Assembly: GCF_020438995.1 (NCBI RefSeq)
Contig: NZ_JAGQTN010000159.1
Span: 1 to 56,138 of the forward strand
DNA from: Gordonia sp. (in: high G+C Gram-positive bacteria)
GTDB taxonomy: Bacteria > Actinomycetota > Actinomycetes > Mycobacteriales > Mycobacteriaceae
Direction: 5' to 3'
Length of the DNA stretch: 56,138 nucleotides
This document shows, in pieces, positions 9,709 through 27,187 of the stretch. How positions within the stretch are numbered: the first letter of the stretch is position 1; every line of letters begins with the position of its first letter. Below the pieces are notes generated by a model that saw only the letters and a program-made list of their open reading frames with translations, did not search any database and was not told the origin of the DNA. The position numbers were made by a program, and so were the translations under genes.

Positions 9709-11775
9709 TCACACGCTACCGATTGTGCGCCACAGGAATTCGTAAGCCAGAGCGGATTTGAACGCCGACTGCTTGTTGTCGGCGGCACCGCCGTGCCCGC
9801 CTTCGATATTCTCGTAGTAGCTGACGCGGTGCCCGGTCTCCTCGAGTCTGGCGACGAACTTGCGGGCGTGCCCCGGGTGCACCCGGTCGTCGCGGGTGGA
9901 GGTGGTCACCAGGATCGGCGGATAGTCGGTGTCGGCGTCGATGTGCTGGTATGGCGAGTACTCGCCGATGTACGCCCATTCGTCGGGGTTGTCGGGGTCG
10001 CCGTATTCGGCCATCCACGACGCGCCGGCGAGCAGCAGATGGTAGCGACGCATGTCGAGCAGCGGAACCTGACACACGATGGCGCCGAACAACTCCGGAT
10101 AGCGCGTCAGCATCACCCCCATCAGCAGGCCACCGTTGGAACCGCCCTGCGCGGCCAGTTGCCGCGGTGTGGTGAGCCCGTCGGCGACAAGCTTTTTCGC
10201 GACCGCCGAGAAGTCCTCGTATACCTTGTGCCGGTTGGCTTTCTGGGTCTGGGTATGCCACAGCGGACCGTACTCGCCGCCGCCGCGGATGTTGGCGATC
10301 ACGTAGATGCCGCCCCGGGAGATCCAGTTGCGGCCGCTCACCGCGGTGTACGTCGGTGTCTGCGACACCTGGAAACCGCCGTAGCCGTACAGCAGTGTGG
10401 GGCCGCTCGTCACATTCTCATCCCGGATCACGAAGTACGGGATCTCGGTGCCGTCGGCGGAGGTGGCGAAGTGCTGTTCGGTGCTCACCGTCGACGTGTC
10501 GTATTGTGCCGGTGCGGATTTGATCACGGTGACCGGCGCGCCGCTGTCTCCGTGCAGCAACGCCGGTGGCGTGGTGAACGACGAAGCGGTCCAGAAGGCT
10601 TCGTCACTGTTGTCGGGGTCGGTGTCGAGTACGGAGATGGTGGCCAGGTCCGGCAGTCCCGGCTGCGGTACCGGCGTCCAGTCGCCGAGTGTGATCACCT
10701 CCACCTCGGTGGCCACGTCGCGCAGTTTCACCAGAATCAGATGGGATCTGGTGAACGCGAACTTCTCGAGAGAGGTGTGCGCGTCGGGGGCGAACAGCAC
10801 CGTGTGATCGCGGCCGCTCGCGAGATAGTCGTCGTAGTCGAATACCAGCAGGGTGTCGGCGTCGTAGGTGATGTCGCCGGCGGCCGGTGCTGACACGGTC
10901 GGTGATGACACGGTCCAGGGGGATCGGGTCAGCACCAGCAGCCAGTTCCGGAACACGGAGAACCGCGAGTCGGTGGGCACCTCGATCTCGACCAGCGCGC
11001 TGTCCACCAGCTCGTAGGTGATGGTGTTGTAGAAGTCGGTGCTGCGCATGACGTAGTCGCGCTCGAATCCGGGTGTCGAGTCGTGCGATGCGGACACCGC
11101 CACGTCGCCGGGGTCGCCGGTGAACACGGTGATCGCGTCGTCGAGGGGGGTGCCACGTGTCCAGCGTTTGGTGACCCGCGCATACCCCGACGACGTCATC
11201 GCCCCGTGTCCGTCGGGCTGCCCACCGAAGTCGGTGCCCACCCAGATGGTGTCGTGATCGATCCAGTCGATGCGGGACTTGTTCTCCGGCAACACGAATC
11301 CGTCGGTGACCCAGGTGCGGGCGTCGACGTCGAACTCGCGGATCACTACCGCGTCGGCGCCGCCCCGCGACAGCGACACGAGGGCTCGCGTGTAGTCGGG
11401 GCACAACATCGTGACCGACGACCACACCCAATTCTCGTCCTCGGCGGCGGCGAGGGCATCGACGTCGATCAGCACATCCCAGTCGGGGGTGTCCGTCGCG
11501 TACGACTCCAAAGTGGTCCGCCGCCAGAGCCCCTTCGGATTCTGCGCGTCCTTCCAGAAGTTGTACAGAAACTCACCGCGTCTGCGCACGTACGGAATCC
11601 GCTCGTCGGTGTCGAGCACCTCCAGCGTCTGCGCCCGCATCTGACGGAACCGATCGCAGTCGGTGAGCGATGCGACGGTCGGCTCGTTGTGCGCCCGAAC
11701 CCACTCGAGCGCCGCCTCCCCGGTCACCTCTTCGAGCCAAAGATACGGATCGTCTGCTGCAGGCGTCTCGGTCAC
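9709..11775 (-). CDS. Prolyl oligopeptidase family serine peptidase (S9)
   Basis: A 688-residue peptidase with an N-terminal beta-propeller (DDPYLWLEEVTG at the start is the family hallmark) and a C-terminal alpha/beta-hydrolase domain. The nucleophile is Ser546 in GGSNGG, the acid is in TRDDRVHPGH and the histidine is His661 in EGGHGG. These enzymes cut short proline-containing peptides in the cytosol or periplasm; no signal peptide is seen. GTG 11775 is chosen because it gives the start VTETPAADDPYLWLE; the longer frame to 11838 crosses a dispersed repeat. A repeat element flanks each end of the gene. Confidence 0.93.
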   Translation of the reverse strand: MTETPAADDPYLWLEEVTGEAALEWVRAHNEPTVASLTDCDRFRQMRAQTLEVLDTDERIPYVRRRGEFLYNFWKDAQNPKGLWRRTTLESYATDTPDWDVLIDVDALAAAEDENWVWSSVTMLCPDYTRALVSLSRGGADAVVIREFDVDARTWVTDGFVLPENKSRIDWIDHDTIWVGTDFGGQPDGHGAMTSSGYARVTKRWTRGTPLDDAITVFTGDPGDVAVSASHDSTPGFERDYVMRSTDFYNTITYELVDSALVEIEVPTDSRFSVFRNWLLVLTRSPWTVSSPTVSAPAAGDITYDADTLLVFDYDDYLASGRDHTVLFAPDAHTSLEKFAFTRSHLILVKLRDVATEVEVITLGDWTPVPQPGLPDLATISVLDTDPDNSDEAFWTASSFTTPPALLHGDSGAPVTVIKSAPAQYDTSTVSTEQHFATSADGTEIPYFVIRDENVTSGPTLLYGYGGFQVSQTPTYTAVSGRNWISRGGIYVIANIRGGGEYGPLWHTQTQKANRHKVYEDFSAVAKKLVADGLTTPRQLAAQGGSNGGLLMGVMLTRYPELFGAIVCQVPLLDMRRYHLLLAGASWMAEYGDPDNPDEWAYIGEYSPYQHIDADTDYPPILVTTSTRDDRVHPGHARKFVARLEETGHRVSYYENIEGGHGGAADNKQSAFKSALAYEFLWRTIGSV

Positions 11776-11802
11776 CCGTCCAGTCTGCACCACCCCCTCG
11801 CT

Positions 11803-11840
11803 GGAGGAGGTACGAGGAGTGTCAGCGACGAGCCTCAACC
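11803..11840 (+). repeat. Dispersed intergenic repeat, copy 2
   Basis: A degenerate copy of the element at 9661-9700: GAGGTACGAGGAGTG then CAGCGACGAGCCTC. It lies upstream of the peptidase gene and downstream of the TerD gene. Confidence 0.6.
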
Positions 11841-11851
11841 GGCAGTGGGGA

Positions 11852-12541
11852 CTACTTGCGGCCGGCCTTCCAGTTCAGGCCCCAGTTGTAGGCCTCGTCG
11901 ACCTTGTCCTGGGCACCGCGGATGTAGCGCACCTCGCGGTTGACGACGAGTTCGCCGCCGCGGTTCTCGAACAGGGCGATCGCGCACGAGAGCGCGCTCT
12001 GGTCGGCCTCGTCCAGGCGGACCTCGATCTGCGGTCCGTTCGTCGGGAAGACGGTCACCACGCCGTTGGCGGCGGCCCAGTTGGGGGCGCCCTCGTAGAT
12101 GTAGGCGAAGATGAGGATTCGCCGGATCTGCTGTGTCGCAGCCAGATCGATGTACATGTTCTCGCCGCCGGTGCCCGAACCCGAGCGGTCGTCGCCGTCG
12201 AGGAGAATGATCGGCTTGCCCTCACGCGGCGCCTGGAACGAGTTGCCGAGGGCCTGTACGATGCCCTTGCTGCCGTCGGTGAACTCCCACAGGCAGGCCA
12301 GGTCGAGGTCGATTCCGCTGGACCGTTTGAAGAAGCCGCCCTTCTTGGCGCCGCTGGTCCAGTTGAGGTTCACCCGCAGTTGTCCGACGGCCGAGCCCTG
12401 CTTGGCCAGCGAGACGCTGGGTGCCGACTTGGTGAGCGTCACCTTCTGCAGCGATATCCCGGGTTGGGCGGGGGCCTGCTGGGTCGGGGGCTGCTGCGGG
12501 GCGGCAGGCTGCGACGGTCGCTTGTTGTAGTCGATACCCAT
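11852..12541 (-). CDS. TerD-family stress protein
   Basis: A 229-residue cytosolic protein. A Pro/Gln-rich linker (about residues 8-30) precedes a complete TerD domain with ISLQKV, LRVNLNW, the acidic metal-binding segment SGIDLDLACLWE and GDDRSGS, and a C-terminal IYEGAPNW/NGVVTVF block. TerD domains bind Ca2+ and occur in tellurite-resistance and phage or stress response systems. Here the gene is alone among Ter genes but lies 109 bases downstream of an Hsp70 and its partner on the same strand, so a shared role in protein-quality control under stress is inferred. Start ATG 12541 is chosen because the long upstream frame is only a shadow. Confidence 0.9.
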   Translation of the reverse strand: MGIDYNKRPSQPAAPQQPPTQQAPAQPGISLQKVTLTKSAPSVSLAKQGSAVGQLRVNLNWTSGAKKGGFFKRSSGIDLDLACLWEFTDGSKGIVQALGNSFQAPREGKPIILLDGDDRSGSGTGGENMYIDLAATQQIRRILIFAYIYEGAPNWAAANGVVTVFPTNGPQIEVRLDEADQSALSCAIALFENRGGELVVNREVRYIRGAQDKVDEAYNWGLNWKAGRK

Positions 12542-12650
12542 TGTCACTGTTCCTCTTCGGTATTGGTGTCGGTGCTGTTCGTGACGGTTGTGCGCGATGA
12601 AACCTGTTGTGGTGTCGTATGTTTTGGAATCCATGTCGGGGACGGAATGG

Positions 12651-14159
12651 TCAGCGGACCTCGATGCGGGCGCGGCGGCCGAATCCGTCGGCCACCTCCA
12701 GGGTTCCCGACGGTGTGCGGCGGCAGCTCGCGACCGCCGCATAGCAGGGACGTGAATCGTCGGGCACCACGAATCCACCGTCGACGTGATAGCGGGAGTT
12801 GGTGATCTTGACGGCGACCGCCGACGGGTCGCCGGGTGCCGCCGGGGGCGCATCGCGACGTAGGTAGACCATCGCCTCGGTCACCCCCGGCGGCCAGGCG
12901 AATGTCAGGACGCCGCCACCCGCGCCGAACACGGCGATGTCGGGCAGGCCGGGGACGGTGGGGGGTCCGGTCGGCACTGGATCAGCTTCGGTACGTTGAC
13001 GTTTCGGTGCTCTGCGGGTGGTGTCGATGCGTCCGGGAACCGGCGGTGCGGGGGTGTCCGAGGGTGGTGGCGTGACTTCTGGTGCCGGGACGGGCTGTGG
13101 GTCCGGAGGTCGGGGCCGTGCGGGGGCGGGCTGGAAGATCTCCGGGGGCTGCGAGGGTGGTTCCTCGCTCTCCACCGAGGCCCCGAATTCACCCGCGAGG
13201 TCGTGCAGAATCTGGCGCGCACCGGCCGGGCCGAGACCGCGATCGATTGCCTCCTCGAACAGGAACTCGTAATCACCGTGCCGCAGAACATCTTCGACGA
13301 GCACAGCGGCCCGCACCCGGGGACGCAGGTAGTCGGCGACGGATTCGCTGACCGCCTTGCAGTAGGCGATGAGCCGGGCGATGTCGCCGAGCAGGATATC
13401 GCGGCAGTGGACGACGAGTTCGTCGAGCACCGCCCGCATCGGGCCGGCCGGCATCTCGCGGACCCGATCGGACAGGATCCCGACGCGGGTCTCGATCCGC
13501 TCGGCGTCGGTGGCGTCGTCGAGGCTCATTCGCAGCAGCGCGAGGAGTGTCGGGGTGGGTTCGTTGCCGGACTGGATGCGGTCGAATTCGCCTAGCAGCC
13601 TGGTGATCTGGCTCAGGCGCTGTTCACTGATCGGGTCAGGTGGCGCCGTCGGCGGCGCGGGTTGCGTGGTGTCGCCGATGATGCGGTGCCGGCGCATCCG
13701 GGCCTCGATCTCGTCCGGGGTGAGCCCTCCCATCGCACCGATGTCGGACAGCCCGGCCCGTTTGGATTCGGGGATGCCGCCGTACCGTTCGACGAGCCGT
13801 TCGATCGCGTTGTCGAGCAGTTCATATCGTCCCGCATCCCGCTGTTCACGTTGTGCGGCAACGGCTCTGGCTTCGACGATCCGGCTGGTGGCGTACCGCA
13901 GCGGCTTCGACCGCGTGTCGTGGGAGCGCACCAGCTGGGTCACCAGGCTGCGGTACTTGGGGTGATCGCGTTGCTTCTGCCAGAACGCCCACACCGCTTC
14001 GATTCTGCCGACGGCCTGATCGTCGGTGATCCGCTCGGCCTCGTCGAGCGGAATATCGTACAGCTCAAACGAATCGGAGGACGACAGTCCGCCGCGCCGG
14101 TCGACGGCGGCGAGGACGCGTTTGCGGTAGTCGTTGGAGTTGAACGGTTGCATCACCAT
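12651..14159 (-). CDS. Hsp70-operon partner protein with FN3-like C-terminus
   Basis: A 502-residue protein. The N-terminus (about 1-85) contains SFELYDIPLDEAE and AVWAFWQKQRDHPKYRSLVTQL, which weakly resembles the divergent J-like domains found next to actinobacterial Hsp70s, but no HPD tripeptide is present (it has RDHPK). A helical middle region with LLRMSLDDATDAERIETRVGIL follows, then a Pro-rich linker (about 335-395). The last about 100 residues form a beta-sandwich pattern (GVLTFAWPPGVTEAMVYLR, RYHVDGGF). The start overlaps the Hsp70 stop (TGATG), so the two are coupled. A co-chaperone or client adaptor role is inferred, not shown. Confidence 0.75.
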   Translation of the reverse strand: MVMQPFNSNDYRKRVLAAVDRRGGLSSSDSFELYDIPLDEAERITDDQAVGRIEAVWAFWQKQRDHPKYRSLVTQLVRSHDTRSKPLRYATSRIVEARAVAAQREQRDAGRYELLDNAIERLVERYGGIPESKRAGLSDIGAMGGLTPDEIEARMRRHRIIGDTTQPAPPTAPPDPISEQRLSQITRLLGEFDRIQSGNEPTPTLLALLRMSLDDATDAERIETRVGILSDRVREMPAGPMRAVLDELVVHCRDILLGDIARLIAYCKAVSESVADYLRPRVRAAVLVEDVLRHGDYEFLFEEAIDRGLGPAGARQILHDLAGEFGASVESEEPPSQPPEIFQPAPARPRPPDPQPVPAPEVTPPPSDTPAPPVPGRIDTTRRAPKRQRTEADPVPTGPPTVPGLPDIAVFGAGGGVLTFAWPPGVTEAMVYLRRDAPPAAPGDPSAVAVKITNSRYHVDGGFVVPDDSRPCYAAVASCRRTPSGTLEVADGFGRRARIEVR

Positions 14160-15829
14160 CACCCGTCGCGGCGCCGGGACCGGTGGACCTGTTCGAGTTC
14201 GCGATTGACCTCCGATTGTGACAGTGTCGCACCGGTTTTCGCCGACAATCGCAATGGTATCCCGGCGTCGACGTGGAAGGCCGTCACGTGCAGCACGCCG
14301 TCGAATCCCATCTCGAAAGTCACCTGCACCTCGCTGCCCTCGTCGTGGCCGCGGGGGATGTCGCGAATGGTGCCCTCTATCAGTATCTTTGCGTCCTGGG
14401 GGCGGGAGGATTCCTGCTGCCCGGCCTGTTCGAGGACGGTCAGCTCGATGATGTCCTGGTCGGCACGCATCGTGCCGAACGACCGTCGCACCCGGATGGG
14501 CAGGGTCTGGTTGCGGTGCACCAGCCACGATGCCTGCAGGTCGCCGTCGCGAACGGCGAGCACTCCGAAGCCGCGGGACACCACCGTGTCGACGGTGATC
14601 TCCAGCATCCGACGCACCCCGCTCACCGGCAGCCCGAACGCCGCGGCCACCCGACTGCACGATTCGTCGACGTCGGTGGGCGATGCCGACAGCACCGGCG
14701 CACCGTCGGCGAGGCGGCCCCGGGTGCGCAGGTCGGCCGTCACCAGCCGTTCCACTTCCAGTTTGTCGCCGTAGATGGCGGCGCCCTTGGCGACGGCCAG
14801 ATCCGGGTCCGACAGTTGCGGATTGAGGCCCAGTTCGTCGCGGATCATGTTGGCGACCATCGGCATTCGCGATGAGCCGCCCACCAGCAGCACCCGGTCG
14901 ATGTTGGCCGCACCCCGGTCGCGCGCGGCGGCCAGACAGGACCGGGTCAGTTCGACGGTGCGCTTGAGCAGCGGCCCGGTGAGGTCTTCGAGTTGCGCGC
15001 GGGTCAGCGTGATCACCGACCGCACCCCGTCGTGGGCGACGATCACCGACGTCGAATCCGAATCCGACAGTTCATGTTTGGCGCGTTCGGCGGCCAGCAC
15101 CAGCGCCTGTGATCCGGCCGAGTCGTCGAGTGGGTCCTCGGCGTCGGGATGTTCGGCGCAGAATTGCTGCGACAGGTACAGCGCGATCCGTTCGTCCCAG
15201 TCGGCGCCGCCGAGTTGATGATCGCCGTCGACGGCCAGCACCGAGATACGCCGGTCGGCCAGTTCGATGACGGTGGCGTCGAATGTTCCGCCGCCCAGGT
15301 CGTACACCAGCACCTTCTCATCGGGTGTCGACGACGAGAAGGCGTCGGTGATCTTGCTGAACCCGTACGACAGGGCGGCGGCGATCGGCTCGGACAGCAC
15401 ACCGGCCACCTCGATGCCCGCGTAGCTGCCGGCCTGGATGGTGGCGCGGCGTTCGTCGTCACCGAAGTAGGCGGGCACGGTGATCACCGCCCGCTGCACC
15501 TGCTCGCCGGAGAACGCGGCGTCGGAGATCAGCGACTTGAGGATGAGCGCGGAGATCGCCGGCGCCGACCACGTCTGCCCGTGCGCCACGAACCGCCAGT
15601 CCGCATCCCCCATACGTCGCTTGACCAGCGCGCACACGTTGTCGGGGTCCAGCCGGGCCTGCCTGCGGGCACCCTCACCGACCACATGGTCATAGGCCGA
15701 CGCCAGCAGTACCACGCTCGGGGTGGTCTGGGACCCGTCCAGACCTGCGATGATCCGGGGCCGGCTCCCGGCGTCCACCGTCGCGATGGCGGAGTTGGTC
15801 GTGCCCAAGTCGATTCCGTAGACGCCCAC
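14159..15829 (-). CDS. Hsp70 (DnaK-like) protein lacking the helical lid
   Basis: A 556-residue DnaK-like ATPase. Its nucleotide-binding domain is intact: GIDLGTTNSAIA (phosphate 1), VPAYFGDDERRAT, LSEPIAAALSYG (connect), VYDLGGGTFDATV (phosphate 2) and VLLVGGSSRMPMV (adenosine). A segment of about 50 residues replaces the usual interdomain linker, and a short beta substrate-binding domain follows (GFGVLAVRDGD, NQTLPIRV, IEGTIRDIP, FDGVLHVTAF). The protein ends soon after, without the C-terminal helical lid of the housekeeping DnaK (about 610-640 residues). Start GTG 15829 places MGVYGIDLGTTN at the N-terminus. It is divergent from a GrpE-like gene and coupled to the next gene. Confidence 0.92.
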   Translation of the reverse strand: MGVYGIDLGTTNSAIATVDAGSRPRIIAGLDGSQTTPSVVLLASAYDHVVGEGARRQARLDPDNVCALVKRRMGDADWRFVAHGQTWSAPAISALILKSLISDAAFSGEQVQRAVITVPAYFGDDERRATIQAGSYAGIEVAGVLSEPIAAALSYGFSKITDAFSSSTPDEKVLVYDLGGGTFDATVIELADRRISVLAVDGDHQLGGADWDERIALYLSQQFCAEHPDAEDPLDDSAGSQALVLAAERAKHELSDSDSTSVIVAHDGVRSVITLTRAQLEDLTGPLLKRTVELTRSCLAAARDRGAANIDRVLLVGGSSRMPMVANMIRDELGLNPQLSDPDLAVAKGAAIYGDKLEVERLVTADLRTRGRLADGAPVLSASPTDVDESCSRVAAAFGLPVSGVRRMLEITVDTVVSRGFGVLAVRDGDLQASWLVHRNQTLPIRVRRSFGTMRADQDIIELTVLEQAGQQESSRPQDAKILIEGTIRDIPRGHDEGSEVQVTFEMGFDGVLHVTAFHVDAGIPLRLSAKTGATLSQSEVNRELEQVHRSRRRDG

Positions 15830-15895
15830 GATCAGCCAGCCTAACAGCGCAAAACGCCCAACGGCAGGGGTGCGCGGCGGCGCTACTCTGAGCAG
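15830..15895. promoter_or_regulatory. Divergent promoter region between hsp70-like and grpE-like genes
   Basis: Only 66 bases separate the two divergent start codons, so both promoters must lie here or inside the coding ends. TACTCT near 15883 is a weak -10 candidate for the plus-strand gene. No HAIR (CTTGAGT-N7-ACTCAAG) or CIRCE heat-shock operator was seen. Confidence 0.35.
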
Positions 15896-16327
15896 ATGAC
15901 AGACGTTGACGACCAGTTGCGACAACTCGCCGAACGCGTGGAGGACCTGACCCGCGTGGTGGTCAGGCAGGCGCAGACCCTCGACCAACTCGTCGACGCC
16001 GACCGCGCCCGCACCTCCGGCCCCGACCTGCCCCTGCTTGTGGAACTGTTCGCCGTCTTCGTCGACGCCGACGCCTGCGCCCGCTCCGGCGACGCCGCCT
16101 TCGCCTCCATCGCGGGCAGCCTCGAACGCCTCATCACCGGCCGCGGCGGCGAGATCATCACCCCGTCGGTCGGCGACCCCTTCGAGGTCTCCACGATGGA
16201 AGCCGTCGACGTCCGCCCCGCCACCGCCGATGACACCCCCCGCACCGTCGCCGACCCCATCCGCCCCGGTCTGCGCGTCGGCCCCCGCTCCGTCCGCCCC
16301 GCCATGGTCACCGTCTTCGGAGACTGA
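15896..16327 (+). CDS. GrpE-like nucleotide exchange factor, short form
   Basis: A 143-residue protein. The first about 40 residues (DDQLRQLAERVEDLTRVVVRQAQ) are a coiled coil like the GrpE long helix. A short helical core follows, and the C-terminus (VGDPFEVSTMEAVDV, then TVADPIRPGLRVGPRSVRPAMVTVF) matches the GrpE beta-wing, whose usual form is VGxPFDPxxHEAV with RxGYxxxxRVLRPAxVxV. It is shorter than housekeeping GrpE (about 180-210). Divergent from the lid-less Hsp70 gene, it probably serves as its dedicated ADP-release factor. Start ATG 15896 follows GAG; no strong ribosome site is visible. Confidence 0.75.
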   Translation: MTDVDDQLRQLAERVEDLTRVVVRQAQTLDQLVDADRARTSGPDLPLLVELFAVFVDADACARSGDAAFASIAGSLERLITGRGGEIITPSVGDPFEVSTMEAVDVRPATADDTPRTVADPIRPGLRVGPRSVRPAMVTVFGD

Positions 16328-23750: not shown

Positions 23751-24194
23751 GTGCCCGAGGGACTGTGGCTCAAACCGGGACAGGTCGCCCAGCGGGCCGG
23801 GGTGGCGGTGTCAACGCTGCACTACTACGAGGAGTACGGGCTCATCAGCAGTCGACGCACCTCGGGGAACCGGCGGGAGTACCGGCGCGACACCCTACGT
23901 CTCGTCGCGTTCGTGCGGGCGTCGCAGACATTGGGCATTCCGCTGGCCCGGATCAAAGCGGCGCTCGCCGACCTGCCGCACGATCGGCCGCCCACCAAAC
24001 AGGATTGGGCTCGCCTGGCAGAGGACTGGCGCGCCGATCTCGACCAACGCATCGCCGGGCTGATCGCGTTGCGCGACAATCTCGCCGACTGCATCGGCTG
24101 TGGCTGCCTGTCACTGACGACGTGTCCGTACGTCAATCCGGGTGACAGACTGGGCAAGGAAGGGCCCGGGGCACGTAAACTGCTGCCCGACTGA
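23751..24194 (+). CDS. soxR: SoxR, redox-sensing MerR-family activator
   Basis: About 147 residues. It has an N-terminal MerR winged helix (LKPGQVAQRAGVAVSTLHYYEEYGLI), a dimerisation helix, and the [2Fe-2S] cluster motif CIGCGCLSLTTC with the exact C-x2-C-x-C-x5-C spacing of SoxR. Oxidation of the cluster by redox-cycling compounds activates target promoters. GTG 23751 is preferred because the ATG at 23721 and GTG at 23712 both sit within the SoxR box; those longer starts cannot be excluded. The divergent ABC exporter is the evident target. SoxR boxes of this kind can also influence the soxR gene itself. Confidence 0.92.
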   Translation: MPEGLWLKPGQVAQRAGVAVSTLHYYEEYGLISSRRTSGNRREYRRDTLRLVAFVRASQTLGIPLARIKAALADLPHDRPPTKQDWARLAEDWRADLDQRIAGLIALRDNLADCIGCGCLSLTTCPYVNPGDRLGKEGPGARKLLPD

Positions 24195-24626
24195 ATGATT
24201 CGACAACCCGTCGATCTTTCGGGAGATAACTGGTCGGACGATGACGCCCCCGATGGCCGGCGCGCGGCGCCGTCTATGTCGGCACCGCACTTATCGACGA
24301 GAACTCGTCGATACCCCCTGCGTCTGCCGCCCCACCGATGTGTCAGGCGTCACCGCCCGCCCTATCTCCCCGGATTTCTCCCCGACCCGAAATCACGTTG
24401 TGACAACTGATCGTGTGGGTTAGTAAACACTACTGATGCGCGTCTGTCCAGAATCGCCGCTATGCAGAGTTTTGCCGCTCCAAGGTCCGCGATCTTGTCT
24501 TAGGAATACAGAATATCGAAACTGGTGACGGTGGTCACAAATTGACAGGTTGATGATCTTGACCTTGAATTCTGTTGCTGATCAGCAAATCTCGGACATG
24601 GGGTGGTGCTGTATGTGATCGGGGAC
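24195..24626. other. 432-base region without a convincing gene
   Basis: The stretch between soxR and the DUF3558 gene has lower GC in its second half, unlike most of the window. Short frames here have poor codon use and no recognised motif. It holds a perfect inverted repeat (listed separately). No tRNA or insertion-sequence end was seen. It may mark the edge of an inserted block. Confidence 0.6.
24292..24313. repeat. Perfect 10-2-10 inverted repeat
   Basis: TATCGACGAG at 24292-24301, two bases (AA), then CTCGTCGATA at 24304-24313. The 2-base centre is too short for an RNA hairpin loop, so a protein-binding palindrome is more likely than a terminator, although it lies about 100 bases downstream of soxR. 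Confidence 0.75.
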
Positions 24627-25313
24627 TTACGACTCTGGTGGCGGCATTCGGTCGATGACACGTTTCATGAAATCGATCGCCCGTTGGCAGACGGCCTCTC
24701 GGCCGATGGGCTTGAAGAGTTTGCTCGTGCCCACGATCACTGGTGATTTACCGGACTTTACGGTAGCCATGCAGTCAGTTGTATCTCTGGAGTCTACGAG
24801 AACGAGTCGCCCCTTGATGGAGATGTCGTAGGAAACTTCGTACCATCCACGATCCTTCATATCCTGCTCGAAGGTAGGGCGGTTTCCGGTAGCGTGCGAG
24901 AGCAATCCGGCGTCAGGGCCTCCGTGAAAGTACCAGATGCATCCTCTCGCCGTCTGGTGGTTGGCGACCGCTACATCCATAGCGGTGGCGGGGTCGAGTC
25001 CTGCGTCGCCGAGCTCTGCGTCGGTCAGAGCGGTGCAGGGTTCGTAGGTGGTTCCGTCATTATTTGTCGACCAGCGGTCCGGGAACGGAGTCACGAATGG
25101 GAGTGCGACTCCTCGGGCATCGGTTTGACGAATGCTCGATCCGGGTACTCCTACTCTGGAATCAACTGTTGCAGTGGGTGAACCGTCGACCGAACAGCCG
25201 GATGGCATGCACATGACGCCGACAATTGCCAGCGCAAGCGGGCGCGAGCTGTTGCCGCGTCTGATGTCATCGGGACTGTCTATAGGTGGCATTGCCATTG
25301 AGGTTCGGCTCAC
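24627..25313 (-). CDS. DUF3558-family lipoprotein
   Basis: A 228-residue exported protein. Its N-terminus has a hydrophobic stretch ending in a lipobox-like LALAIVGVMCMPSGC, and the mature domain shows DUF3558 features: YEPCTALTDAELGDAGLDPATA, GCIWYFHGG and a Cys pair (DCMATVKSG, VCQRAIDFM). DUF3558 lipoproteins are common in mycolic-acid bacteria and their function is unsettled. Start GTG 25313 overlaps the preceding stop by four bases (GTGA), so it is translationally coupled to the WXG-like gene. An ATG at 25298 is an alternative that would shorten a rather long leader. Confidence 0.83.
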   Translation of the reverse strand: MSRTSMAMPPIDSPDDIRRGNSSRPLALAIVGVMCMPSGCSVDGSPTATVDSRVGVPGSSIRQTDARGVALPFVTPFPDRWSTNNDGTTYEPCTALTDAELGDAGLDPATAMDVAVANHQTARGCIWYFHGGPDAGLLSHATGNRPTFEQDMKDRGWYEVSYDISIKGRLVLVDSRDTTDCMATVKSGKSPVIVGTSKLFKPIGREAVCQRAIDFMKRVIDRMPPPES

Positions 25314-25663
25314 GTTTCTGTGATGATTACAGCCGATTCTTGATCGGTCACGGCGAGGGTCCTGGCTGCGTCGGAGCACGCGGAAGCCAGATTCTTCGCC
25401 GACGCGGCGCGAAGTTGCAGACTCGCGACCCACTCGTTGATGTTGTTGCGAAACATGGCATGCATGTACTGTCCTTCAACACAGTCGCCGAAGTGGTTCA
25501 AGACGAACAACCTCTTCGCGCGATCGGCGATAAGGTCGAGTTCGTCGCCGACGTGCTGTGCCACCAGTCCCCGTTCTTTCCACCAGGCTTCGGTGAACTG
25601 GAACACCTGCTCGGATGTGAACGAGTAGTGCTGCCCGTCCGGTTTATCCTCGTCGCCTGCCAT
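25310..25663 (-). CDS. Small helical protein, WXG100/ESX-like (tentative)
   Basis: A 117-residue, mainly helical protein with no signal peptide. It contains QVFQFTEAWWKERGLVAQHV, a central NHFGDCVEGQYMHAMF segment and a C-terminal SLQLRAASAKNLASACSDAA helix. Length, helical character, lack of a signal and position (next to a DUF3558 lipoprotein and opposite a PPE-like protein) fit a type VII secretion-associated protein. No exact WxG turn is present, so the family is an inference. ATG 25663 has GGGGGA before it. Confidence 0.5.
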   Translation of the reverse strand: MAGDEDKPDGQHYSFTSEQVFQFTEAWWKERGLVAQHVGDELDLIADRAKRLFVLNHFGDCVEGQYMHAMFRNNINEWVASLQLRAASAKNLASACSDAARTLAVTDQESAVIITET

Positions 25664-25843
25664 AGCGTCCCCCTGCGCTCGGTCACCCCCGTACACGACT
25701 GGCGCAGGTAGCGTCGATCGTGAACCATCTTCACCGTACGAAAGGTGTTGATAGTTGACTTAACTCGTAGCAGTGAACACGGTATGGTCGCCGTTGTCCA
25801 GACTGTGGACAGATGTTGTGGACAACTGGTATCGGGGGATGCG

Positions 25844-27187
25844 GTGGCGGCACGGAGCCCATGGTCGGCGATGAGTATCGGTGAGGTGATCGGTGTCGTT
25901 GGTACGATGTCGGGCGGCAGCGCATCCGGCGACACGCAGGCATTCAACGAACTCGTTACGGCGGCAGGGAAACTCGGCGACTCGATGATCGAGAGCTTCG
26001 CCGGGGGCGACGCACGCGGCGAAGGTGCCGATGCCGGTCGTTCGGCGGGACGTGAACTGGGAGAATTGATCCTGACCGACTCCGACGTCGCTGCGGTGAC
26101 CAGCAATGCCATGTCCTCGGCCGCGGATGTGGTCGCCGCCACGTCGAAGGAGACCCCGCTCCTGGAGTCGATGCGCAGGGACGCGGAGACCAAGACGGCC
26201 TCCATTATCGAGGTCCGGGCGTCGGTGGAGCGTCTGATGAACTATTCGTACACCGATCCGATGAATGAGATCGACGTGCACACGGACACTGTCCTGGGAA
26301 TCGTACAAAATCGTTGGATCGCGAACACGGCGACGACCGCCGGTACGGATCTTCTGTCGACGACCGGCGATACCACCATCGCGACGACATCAAACACACC
26401 GTACGGCAACATATCTACACCCCTGACGACCACGACGGGCGGCACACCGACAACCAGCACGCCGACAACCAGCACGCCGACGAACAGCGGCCCGACCACC
26501 ACGTCCCGTGCGACGACCGACCCCACCGGTACGCCGAGCAACACCAGGACGACCACGACACCCACACCGGTGCGAGCTGCGGACAATCAGACCACCGCCG
26601 ACAACAGGACGACCAGCCGCGCCACCCCGTCAACCGGACAATTGCCGAACAGTACTGTGTGGCAAACGAATCAGGATGAGAAGAGCCGGCCGAACGGCAC
26701 GCCGGGCGCCGACAGCCGGGACGATCCCGCCGCGCACAACCCGGACCACGATGTCACCGACCCGAATCTCGCCGGACCGGTGCCGTACTCCGGCCTGAAT
26801 CTGCCCGCGAATCCCACCGGGTCACCGACCGGAACGCCGGTGGGAAGTCCACGGGTCAACGGGATTCCGCCGACCACACTCCCGCCCAGATCCATCACGG
26901 GCACGTCACCGGTGCCGACGACAGCTTCCGGGCCGGTGAACACAGGTGCCCGACCACTGGCGTCCGGCCCGATGGCGCCTGCTGCCAGGGCCGGTGGTTC
27001 GGGCGACGACAAGAAGGCGCACAAGTCCGCGGGCTACCTACACACCACCGACAACGGCTCCGAGGCAGTGGGTGCGATGCCGCTGGTGGCACCGCCCGTC
27101 CTCGGTGACTGGTCGCACCCCGGCGACGACGTCGCAGACGAAACCCGTGCCGGCGGGGAAACCGGAAGCGGACCGGTCCGGACGTGA
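25844..27187 (+). CDS. PPE-like protein with Thr/Pro-rich domain
   Basis: About 447 residues. The N-terminal third (to about residue 170) is helical and contains EVIGVVGTMSGGSASGD and a long Ala/Ser-rich section. A low-complexity Thr/Pro/Ser/Asn domain follows (about 180-400), and a conserved-looking C-terminus HKSAGYLHTTDNGSEAVGAM then PLVAPPVLGDW. A helical head, disordered Thr/Pro linker and AGYL...PLVAPPV tail occur in ESX-associated PPE-like proteins of Nocardia, Gordonia and Rhodococcus. GTG 25844 is preferred over the distal start at 25745 because GGGGGA lies six bases upstream. Divergent from the WXG-like gene. Confidence 0.6.
   Translation: MAARSPWSAMSIGEVIGVVGTMSGGSASGDTQAFNELVTAAGKLGDSMIESFAGGDARGEGADAGRSAGRELGELILTDSDVAAVTSNAMSSAADVVAATSKETPLLESMRRDAETKTASIIEVRASVERLMNYSYTDPMNEIDVHTDTVLGIVQNRWIANTATTAGTDLLSTTGDTTIATTSNTPYGNISTPLTTTTGGTPTTSTPTTSTPTNSGPTTTSRATTDPTGTPSNTRTTTTPTPVRAADNQTTADNRTTSRATPSTGQLPNSTVWQTNQDEKSRPNGTPGADSRDDPAAHNPDHDVTDPNLAGPVPYSGLNLPANPTGSPTGTPVGSPRVNGIPPTTLPPRSITGTSPVPTTASGPVNTGARPLASGPMAPAARAGGSGDDKKAHKSAGYLHTTDNGSEAVGAMPLVAPPVLGDWSHPGDDVADETRAGGETGSGPVRT

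Follow-up and report, generated by a model that had tools for sequence, protein, structure and literature searches.

What would an Hsp70 without a lid do beside a TerD-like gene in a bacterium that already carries a complete dnaK-grpE-dnaJ operon, and which protein would serve as its J-protein? This question is raised by four genes, hereafter the module, in a 56,138-nt stretch of contig NZ_JAGQTN010000159.1 (the whole stretch analysed is termed the window) of a Gordonia sp. whose genome measures 4.8 Mb. Of the named relatives in the tree, Gordonia amarae stands closest to it, with an Hsp70 of 92% identity. An earlier note, made from the letters of the sequence, described a lidless Hsp70, a coupled 502-residue partner, a TerD gene on the same strand and a GrpE-like gene diverging 66 bases away, and proposed a self-contained chaperone system separate from the housekeeping one. 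All four genes were verified at the coordinates listed below. On balance, the Hsp70 machine encoded here is probably dedicated to a Ter stress-response system and kept apart from the housekeeping DnaK and DnaJ. Judging from alignments, what appears to be new is an HPK or HPR motif where a J domain would have HPD, together with the replacement of Arg167 of the Hsp70 by Asp or Gly while the catalytic residues are kept. The features are as follows.

11852..12541, minus strand: TerD-like gene, 229 aa, divergent TerD subfamily
12651..14159, minus strand: partner, 502 aa, with a predicted J-like domain, a second helical half, a disordered linker and a fibronectin type III (FnIII) domain
13782..14138, minus strand: predicted J-like domain 1 of the partner, residues 8-126
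13956..13964, minus strand: HPK, partner residues 66-68, proposed equivalent of the J-domain HPD motif
13170..13625, minus strand: second helical half of the partner, residues 179-330, possibly a second J-like domain
12654..12956, minus strand: FnIII-like domain of the partner, residues 402-502, predicted fold
14159..15829, minus strand: lidless Hsp70, 556 aa
15401..15403, minus strand: codon of Hsp70 Gly143, aligned to E. coli DnaK Arg167
15830..15895, no strand: divergent gap of 66 bp between the Hsp70 and GrpE-like genes
15896..16327, plus strand: short gene, 143 aa, for a GrpE-like nucleotide exchange factor

The ATG of the partner overlaps the TGA of the Hsp70 by one base (TGATG), as the earlier note had read it, and the TerD-like gene is separated from the partner by a gap.

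An additional Hsp70 and its probably altered J-protein contact

The Hsp70 matches PF00012 at 320 bits in a Pfam scan, and its lack of a lid is confirmed by alignment: 21 residues align past the beta-substrate domain, versus 131 in the DnaK of the same genome. That DnaK is encoded by a dnaK-grpE-dnaJ operon elsewhere, on contig C142, so the module protein is an additional Hsp70; the possibility that it was the only DnaK of the genome, which the earlier note had held against its own proposal, does not apply. Two further lidless Hsp70s are encoded on contig C231, and a remote Hsp70-like match (25 bits) lies on C161. In a tree of 41 Hsp70s, which took in 24 of the 39 module Hsp70s (the window and 38 relative loci), these 24 form one clade (support 100/98), outside which fall the 11 actinobacterial DnaKs and that of E. 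coli, and the proposed separation from the housekeeping chaperones thus stands. The C231 Hsp70s are nearest to the module clade (90/95, long branches); long-branch warnings were given for L004, L097 and L003, which meet.

In E. coli, as given in PMC8215388, Asp35 of the DnaJ HPD motif bonds to Arg167 and Gln378 of DnaK, His33 bonds to Leu391, and Asp481 is a contact of Arg167. According to a second article (PMC13012618), the D35N change in DnaJ suppresses R167A of DnaK; the Asp35-Arg167 contact therefore tolerates paired change. At the positions of Arg167, Gln378, Glu217, Leu391 and Asp393, all 39 module Hsp70s are changed, whereas the 11 housekeeping DnaKs keep the residues without exception. 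Position 167 is Gly in 23 module Hsp70s, including that of the window, and Asp in 16; the place of Gln378 is taken by Tyr, Phe or Trp, that of Glu217 by Ser, Ala, Thr or Gln, that of Leu391 by Val (one Ser) and that of Asp393 by Thr or Asn. Trp at 378 and Ser at 391 occur in L068 alone, whose Hsp70 matches as separate tblastn pieces, of which the best was used as read. The comparison left out loci L096 and L111; loci L105 and L106 correspond to the genes of L067 and L068. The catalytic residues Glu171, Thr199, Asp148 and Pro143 are kept in 39 of 39 module Hsp70s as well as in 11 of 11 housekeeping DnaKs.

On the other side of the proposed contact, HPK is read in 37 of the 39 partners and HPR in the remaining two, with HPD in none. 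The stretch VWAFWQKQRDHPKYR is invariant across the 19 rows of alignment A1 and little changed in 20 further loci. Asp167 occurs in the deepest branch (L067 and L068), in families f9 and f2 and in Geodermatophilaceae, while Gly is confined to the Gordonia-Nocardia branch; because of this distribution, Asp is probably the older state. The combination of HPK or HPR with a lost Arg167 suggests a chaperone pair insulated from DnaK and DnaJ, with the charge reversed where Asp is present. A reversed salt bridge between Lys or Arg and Asp167 is a reasonable reading of 16 of the 39 pairs; it does not fit the window, where Gly would face Lys. A fuller scenario can be offered tentatively. Hsp70 and J-like partner would form an orthogonal pair, with Lys or Arg set against Asp167 where the Asp of HPD and Arg167 would otherwise meet; a Ter system would gain a private chaperone without DnaK/DnaJ cross-talk, and the Gordonia-Nocardia branch would later have neutralised the Hsp70 position to Gly.

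Several observations weigh against these readings. The place of Asp481 is still Asp in 38 of 39 module Hsp70s, which counts against the reversed salt bridge. The J assignment of the partner is a prediction from a moderate fold match of domain 1 (AlphaFold model and structure comparison), not from sequence: hhalign gives domain 1 a probability of 0.4% against 15 J domains (the set comprises 15 of 16, L116 being left out; the extraction pattern required HPD). The second half scores 5.6% against the J profile when all rows are used; with 12 Geodermatophilaceae-type and f9 rows the probability is 11.5 (P 0.0026), a weak value at which RPD is set on HPD. Domains 1 and 2 compare with each other at 2%. 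These low probabilities (0.4-11.5%) give no sequence-level proof of J homology, and the J-likeness is therefore one of fold only. With this qualification, a second J-like domain may lie in the second half, and the J-protein that a self-contained system would need is probably the partner itself; the exchange factor of such a system is present in the GrpE-like gene. In Geodermatophilaceae partners, the second half reads RPD at the HPD place while domain 1 reads HPK, a weak correspondence.

The partner has no match in Pfam, NCBIfam, PADLOC or PHROGs, and a tblastn search with it against a phage collection returned none. Residues 402-502 are predicted to adopt an FnIII-like fold: many rows of the structure comparison (VIA) are labelled FnIII, and the others (insulin receptors and the like) presumably contain FnIII domains as well, while Foldseek found nothing for this part at E<=0.001. 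Partner length, as read from the match, is 545-728 residues in 14 other Gordonia loci versus 502-519 in the window, L008 and L073. By this comparison, a middle part common to most other Gordonia partners is missing in the window/L008/L073 branch.

The GrpE-like protein of the window reaches 23.8 bits with Pfam GrpE, just below the cut-off of 25.8. In alignment A4, eight of eight members, the window included, match GrpE (best 7.2e-11); a profile comparison of 24 GrpE-like proteins with 11 housekeeping GrpEs by hhalign gives 94.6%, and a Tsukamurella gene at the same place is annotated as GrpE. On these sequence comparisons, the GrpE identity of the short gene holds up. The Tsukamurella record (NZ_LR134461.1, L146), which is called plasmid 19, carries GrpE, Hsp70 and then a partner-sized hypothetical gene; as rpsB is also on it, the record is probably a chromosomal piece. 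In Nocardia inohanensis (L012, 2152-2844), there is a second GrpE (38.8 bits, above the cut-off) at a distance of about 3 kb from the GrpE-like gene of the module.

A promoter scan of the divergent gap found no sigma-70-type site. By eye, a TANNNT box stands 6-8 nt before each of the two starts in the window, and in most of 24 aligned gaps a CTGNTA-type box with TANNNT lies 6-8 nt before the Hsp70 start; such boxes, as judged by eye, would suit leaderless mRNAs. Heat-shock control was also considered, and a pattern search of the 24 divergent gaps did not find an HspR/HAIR motif.

Conservation of the module and its link to Ter genes

A partner search of named genomes gave 18 loci. By taxon, the partner was found in at least 15 of 397 genomes of the order, in 17 of 59 of the genus and in at least 2 of 396 of a phylum sample, both of the latter belonging to the genus of the window; the source genome is included in each of the three counts, and the order and phylum figures are lower bounds, with eight candidates per genome scored among the matches shown. 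In the 38 relative loci examined (L008-L025 and 20 others), Hsp70 lies upstream of the partner in all 38, a TerD-like gene lies within 3.5 kb of the partner in 26 and a GrpE-like gene in 23. Given the constant Hsp70-partner order and the proximity of TerD-like genes, the association is not due to chance. The co-occurrence of four genes envisaged at the outset is thus borne out for the Hsp70-partner pair, and the full set is not invariant. Among the 17 Gordonia loci, window included, Hsp70 and GrpE-like genes are present in 17 and a TerD-like gene in 16, the TerD-like gene always downstream and on the same strand. Where Geodermatophilaceae possess this gene, it is upstream and divergent; in two f5 genomes it is upstream and co-oriented. 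Gordonia, Nocardia and an f2 genome retain the GrpE-like gene.

The gene that the earlier note called TerD keeps its position and strand; its identity is narrowed to that of a divergent TerD-like protein. Its Pfam TerD score is 21 bits, below the cut-off of 25.3. When it is aligned with 12 relatives, the stretches LDxDDRSG and GGEN are invariant, and the start MGIDY is common to the relatives read from their start; five of the 13 members of this alignment (A3) match TerD at E<=0.01. A profile comparison with one classical TerD gives a probability of 4.6%, and no solved structure was matched by sequence. Membership of the TerD family is thus weak, leaning on sub-threshold Pfam matches and genomic context.

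The context is clearest in L067 (genome G004, family f5), where a single strand carries TerD (279 bits), DUF475/TerC (432 bits) and a TerD-like gene (no Pfam match; 344 bits with the A3 profile), followed by a 220-aa relative of the GrpE-like family (hhalign 74%, and 47% to housekeeping GrpE), Hsp70 and the partner, and then by C-C_Bond_Lyase, PRTase_2-TRSP and StiP-PELOTA_1 genes. The partner of this locus also carries a double zinc ribbon (just below the cut-off). The chaperone set of L067 lies inside a ter operon, which is the strongest evidence that the set serves the Ter system; the link to Ter genes is real. Elsewhere, DUF475 and TerD adjoin the TerD-like gene in L013, DUF475 and two AIM24 proteins are found nearby in L023, and StiP is nearby in L137. 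In the window itself, the TerD-like gene is the only gene of a Ter cluster.

Other neighbours vary. A prolyl oligopeptidase gene flanks the module in the window (9709-11838); it stands downstream of the TerD-like gene in the window, L008 and L073 and upstream of the GrpE-like gene in L009, L010, L072 and L074-L078, and an S9 peptidase abuts the partner in L023. Within window positions 24001-26000, GC content drops to 58-59%, versus mostly 63-69% nearby.

A proposed mechanism and its rivals

In the mechanism proposed here, the first J-like domain would dock on the Hsp70 through HPK or HPR instead of HPD, on the face that has lost Arg167, Gln378, Glu217, Leu391 and Asp393. Hsp70s with Asp167 would form a reversed salt bridge with HPK or HPR; in Gordonia and Nocardia Gly would have replaced this Asp. 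Docking would set off ATP hydrolysis, a client still assembling or only partly folded would be retained for a short time by the lidless binding domain, and the GrpE-like factor would reset the cycle. The FnIII tail could tether the machine to this client, for which the TerD-like protein or a membrane DUF475/TerC-linked Ter complex is the most likely candidate. The J-type stimulation, the insulation from DnaK and the Ter client are all inferred.

The explanation that survives best beside this one, although doubtful, is that the partner domains are degenerate J scaffolds: without HPD there would be no stimulation of the ATPase, and the Hsp70 would act as a nucleotide-dependent switch or assembly subunit, not as a cycling chaperone. 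The absence of HPD from 39 of 39 partners and the change of five of five tested J-contact residues in the Hsp70 are in keeping with it, as is the architecture of the module Hsp70s, in which the lid is missing and about 46 residues are aligned at the 11-residue linker stretch. However, the stretch around the motif (VWAFWQKQRDHPKYR) does not behave like a decaying motif, being invariant or nearly constant in all rows compared, and the Hsp70 catalytic residues are kept. The retention of the GrpE-like exchange factor in Gordonia, Nocardia and the f2 genome implies a turnover cycle.

Somewhat less likely is a derivation from biological conflict, in which the module would be a stripped antiviral system of the GAP1-N2 type: infection would trigger the Hsp70/GrpE/FnIII triad, as an assembly device or a threshold device, and TerD would be a variable attachment among others. 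In Kaur et al. 2020 (PMC7159879), about 14% of GAP1-N2 neighbourhoods are stated to hold HSP70, GrpE and an FnIII protein that as a rule has a DnaJ domain or tetratricopeptide repeats fused to it, and a conflict role is argued for these systems. The source genome has such a system on C231 (L005 361-13276), with GAP1-N2 (70.5 bits), GAP1-M, vWA, GrpE (30.7 bits), two DO-GTPase2-like proteins (one above and one below the cut-off), the two lidless Hsp70s that are nearest to the module clade in the tree, and an 896-residue partner with a sub-cut-off fn3 match. A second Ter/GAP1-N2 neighbourhood of the genome, on C141 (L178 1806-17872), has TerD and DUF475/TerC next to a GAP1-N2 protein, with a Tubulin_2 protein at a greater distance.

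GAP1-N2 is present in 15 of 197 genomes of the class, and the search for Hsp70s covered 16 loci: those of C231 and C141 and, for the 14 other genomes, one locus apiece. Near-full-length Hsp70s occur in 6 of the 16 loci (L165, L168, L169, L171, L173 and L005), with a partial match in L167. The profile of the module partner domain matches the GAP1-N2 partners of L165 (E 2.9e-5) and L171 (E 8.5e-5), where the place aligned with HPK reads KKT and RLK, respectively; it has no match to the partners of L168, L169, L173 and C231, and the module partner compares with that of C231 at an hhalign probability of 0.8%. Position 167 is N, D, D, D and G in the Hsp70s of L165, L168, L169, L171 and L173; the two C231 Hsp70s have G and E. 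Since these Hsp70s also lack Arg at this position, its loss belongs to a wider lidless group, with HPK or HPR seen in the Ter-linked branch only. Against a conflict role, no GTPase or GAP1 family was detected among the proteins scanned in L067 (9), L013 (2) and L023 (5), nor any GAP1-N2, DO-GTPase or vWA family among 10 window proteins; PADLOC returned no match for the four module proteins, the gene set is stable across the Gordonia loci, and the surroundings in L067 are Ter metabolic genes, not effectors.

It is improbable that the TerD-like gene is simply a neighbour by descent and the chaperone set unrelated to Ter. In 12 of 38 relatives the TerD-like gene is beyond 3.5 kb of the partner or was not found near it: it lies about 10 kb away in G035, about 27 kb away in G253 and elsewhere in the genome in G191 and G040, and G214 and G317 have only weaker relatives (E about 1e-53), also elsewhere. 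The TerD subfamily is moreover commoner than the partner (75 versus at least 15 of 397 genomes), and 14 TerD regions from genomes without a partner match contain Hsp70 or partner in none. Nevertheless, all 15 partner-bearing genomes have a TerD-subfamily match at E<=1e-40, versus 75 of 397 overall; counted by genus, the subfamily is present in 8 of 8 partner-bearing genera versus 30 of 85 (hypergeometric 1.2e-4, kinship ignored). Linkage has three arrangements in separate families, and the set is embedded in the ter operon of L067. Finally, a redundant copy of the housekeeping DnaK-GrpE is hardly credible, as the sequence relationship of both proteins is outweighed by the separate clade, the missing lid, the J-contact surface changed in 39 of 39 and the presence of the dnaK operon.

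If the proposal of a dedicated Ter chaperone is correct, it bears on more than this locus. The HPD-Arg167 contact is regarded as the common trigger of Hsp70 chaperones. With a natural family in which both sides of it are consistently replaced while the catalytic residues remain, one could test what this contact requires and how Hsp70 machines working in parallel are kept from cross-talk. Ter, a system still poorly understood, would gain a dedicated chaperone and, thereby, a handle on its clients.

Relation to known chaperone and Ter systems

In titles and abstracts (for part of the searches, the best 12-20 of more matches), neither the module nor an HPK J-protein with a changed Arg167 was reported, and no Hsp70/GrpE/J-like set in ter operons was reported among the matches listed (titles and abstracts of open-licence articles). 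With the housekeeping DnaK/DnaJ/GrpE system, the module shares the ATPase catalytic residues, a GrpE-like factor and a partner of J-like predicted fold. It differs in being lidless, in the changes at Arg167, Gln378, Glu217, Leu391 and Asp393, in the HPK or HPR motif and in forming its own Hsp70 clade.

Ter stress-response clusters, reportedly the subject of Anantharaman et al. 2012, comprise TerD, TerC/DUF475, TelA, PRTase_2-TRSP, C-C lyase and StiP-PELOTA. The module resembles them in that it adjoins a TerD-like gene, that the ter operon of L067 encloses the chaperone set, that DUF475 and TerD or AIM24 genes lie near it in L013 and L023, and that StiP does so in L137.

The GAP1-N2 systems offer the closest comparison. 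Hsp70 and GrpE are shared by sequence, while the FnIII and J parts of the module would be alike by predicted fold only; the Hsp70s are lidless and nearest to each other in the tree (90/95), and Arg167 is absent in both groups. The module differs in its link to TerD-like genes and to a ter operon and in the HPK or HPR motif of its partner. It is thus a GTPase-free, Ter-linked branch of the known Hsp70/GrpE/FnIII theme of GAP1-N2 systems.

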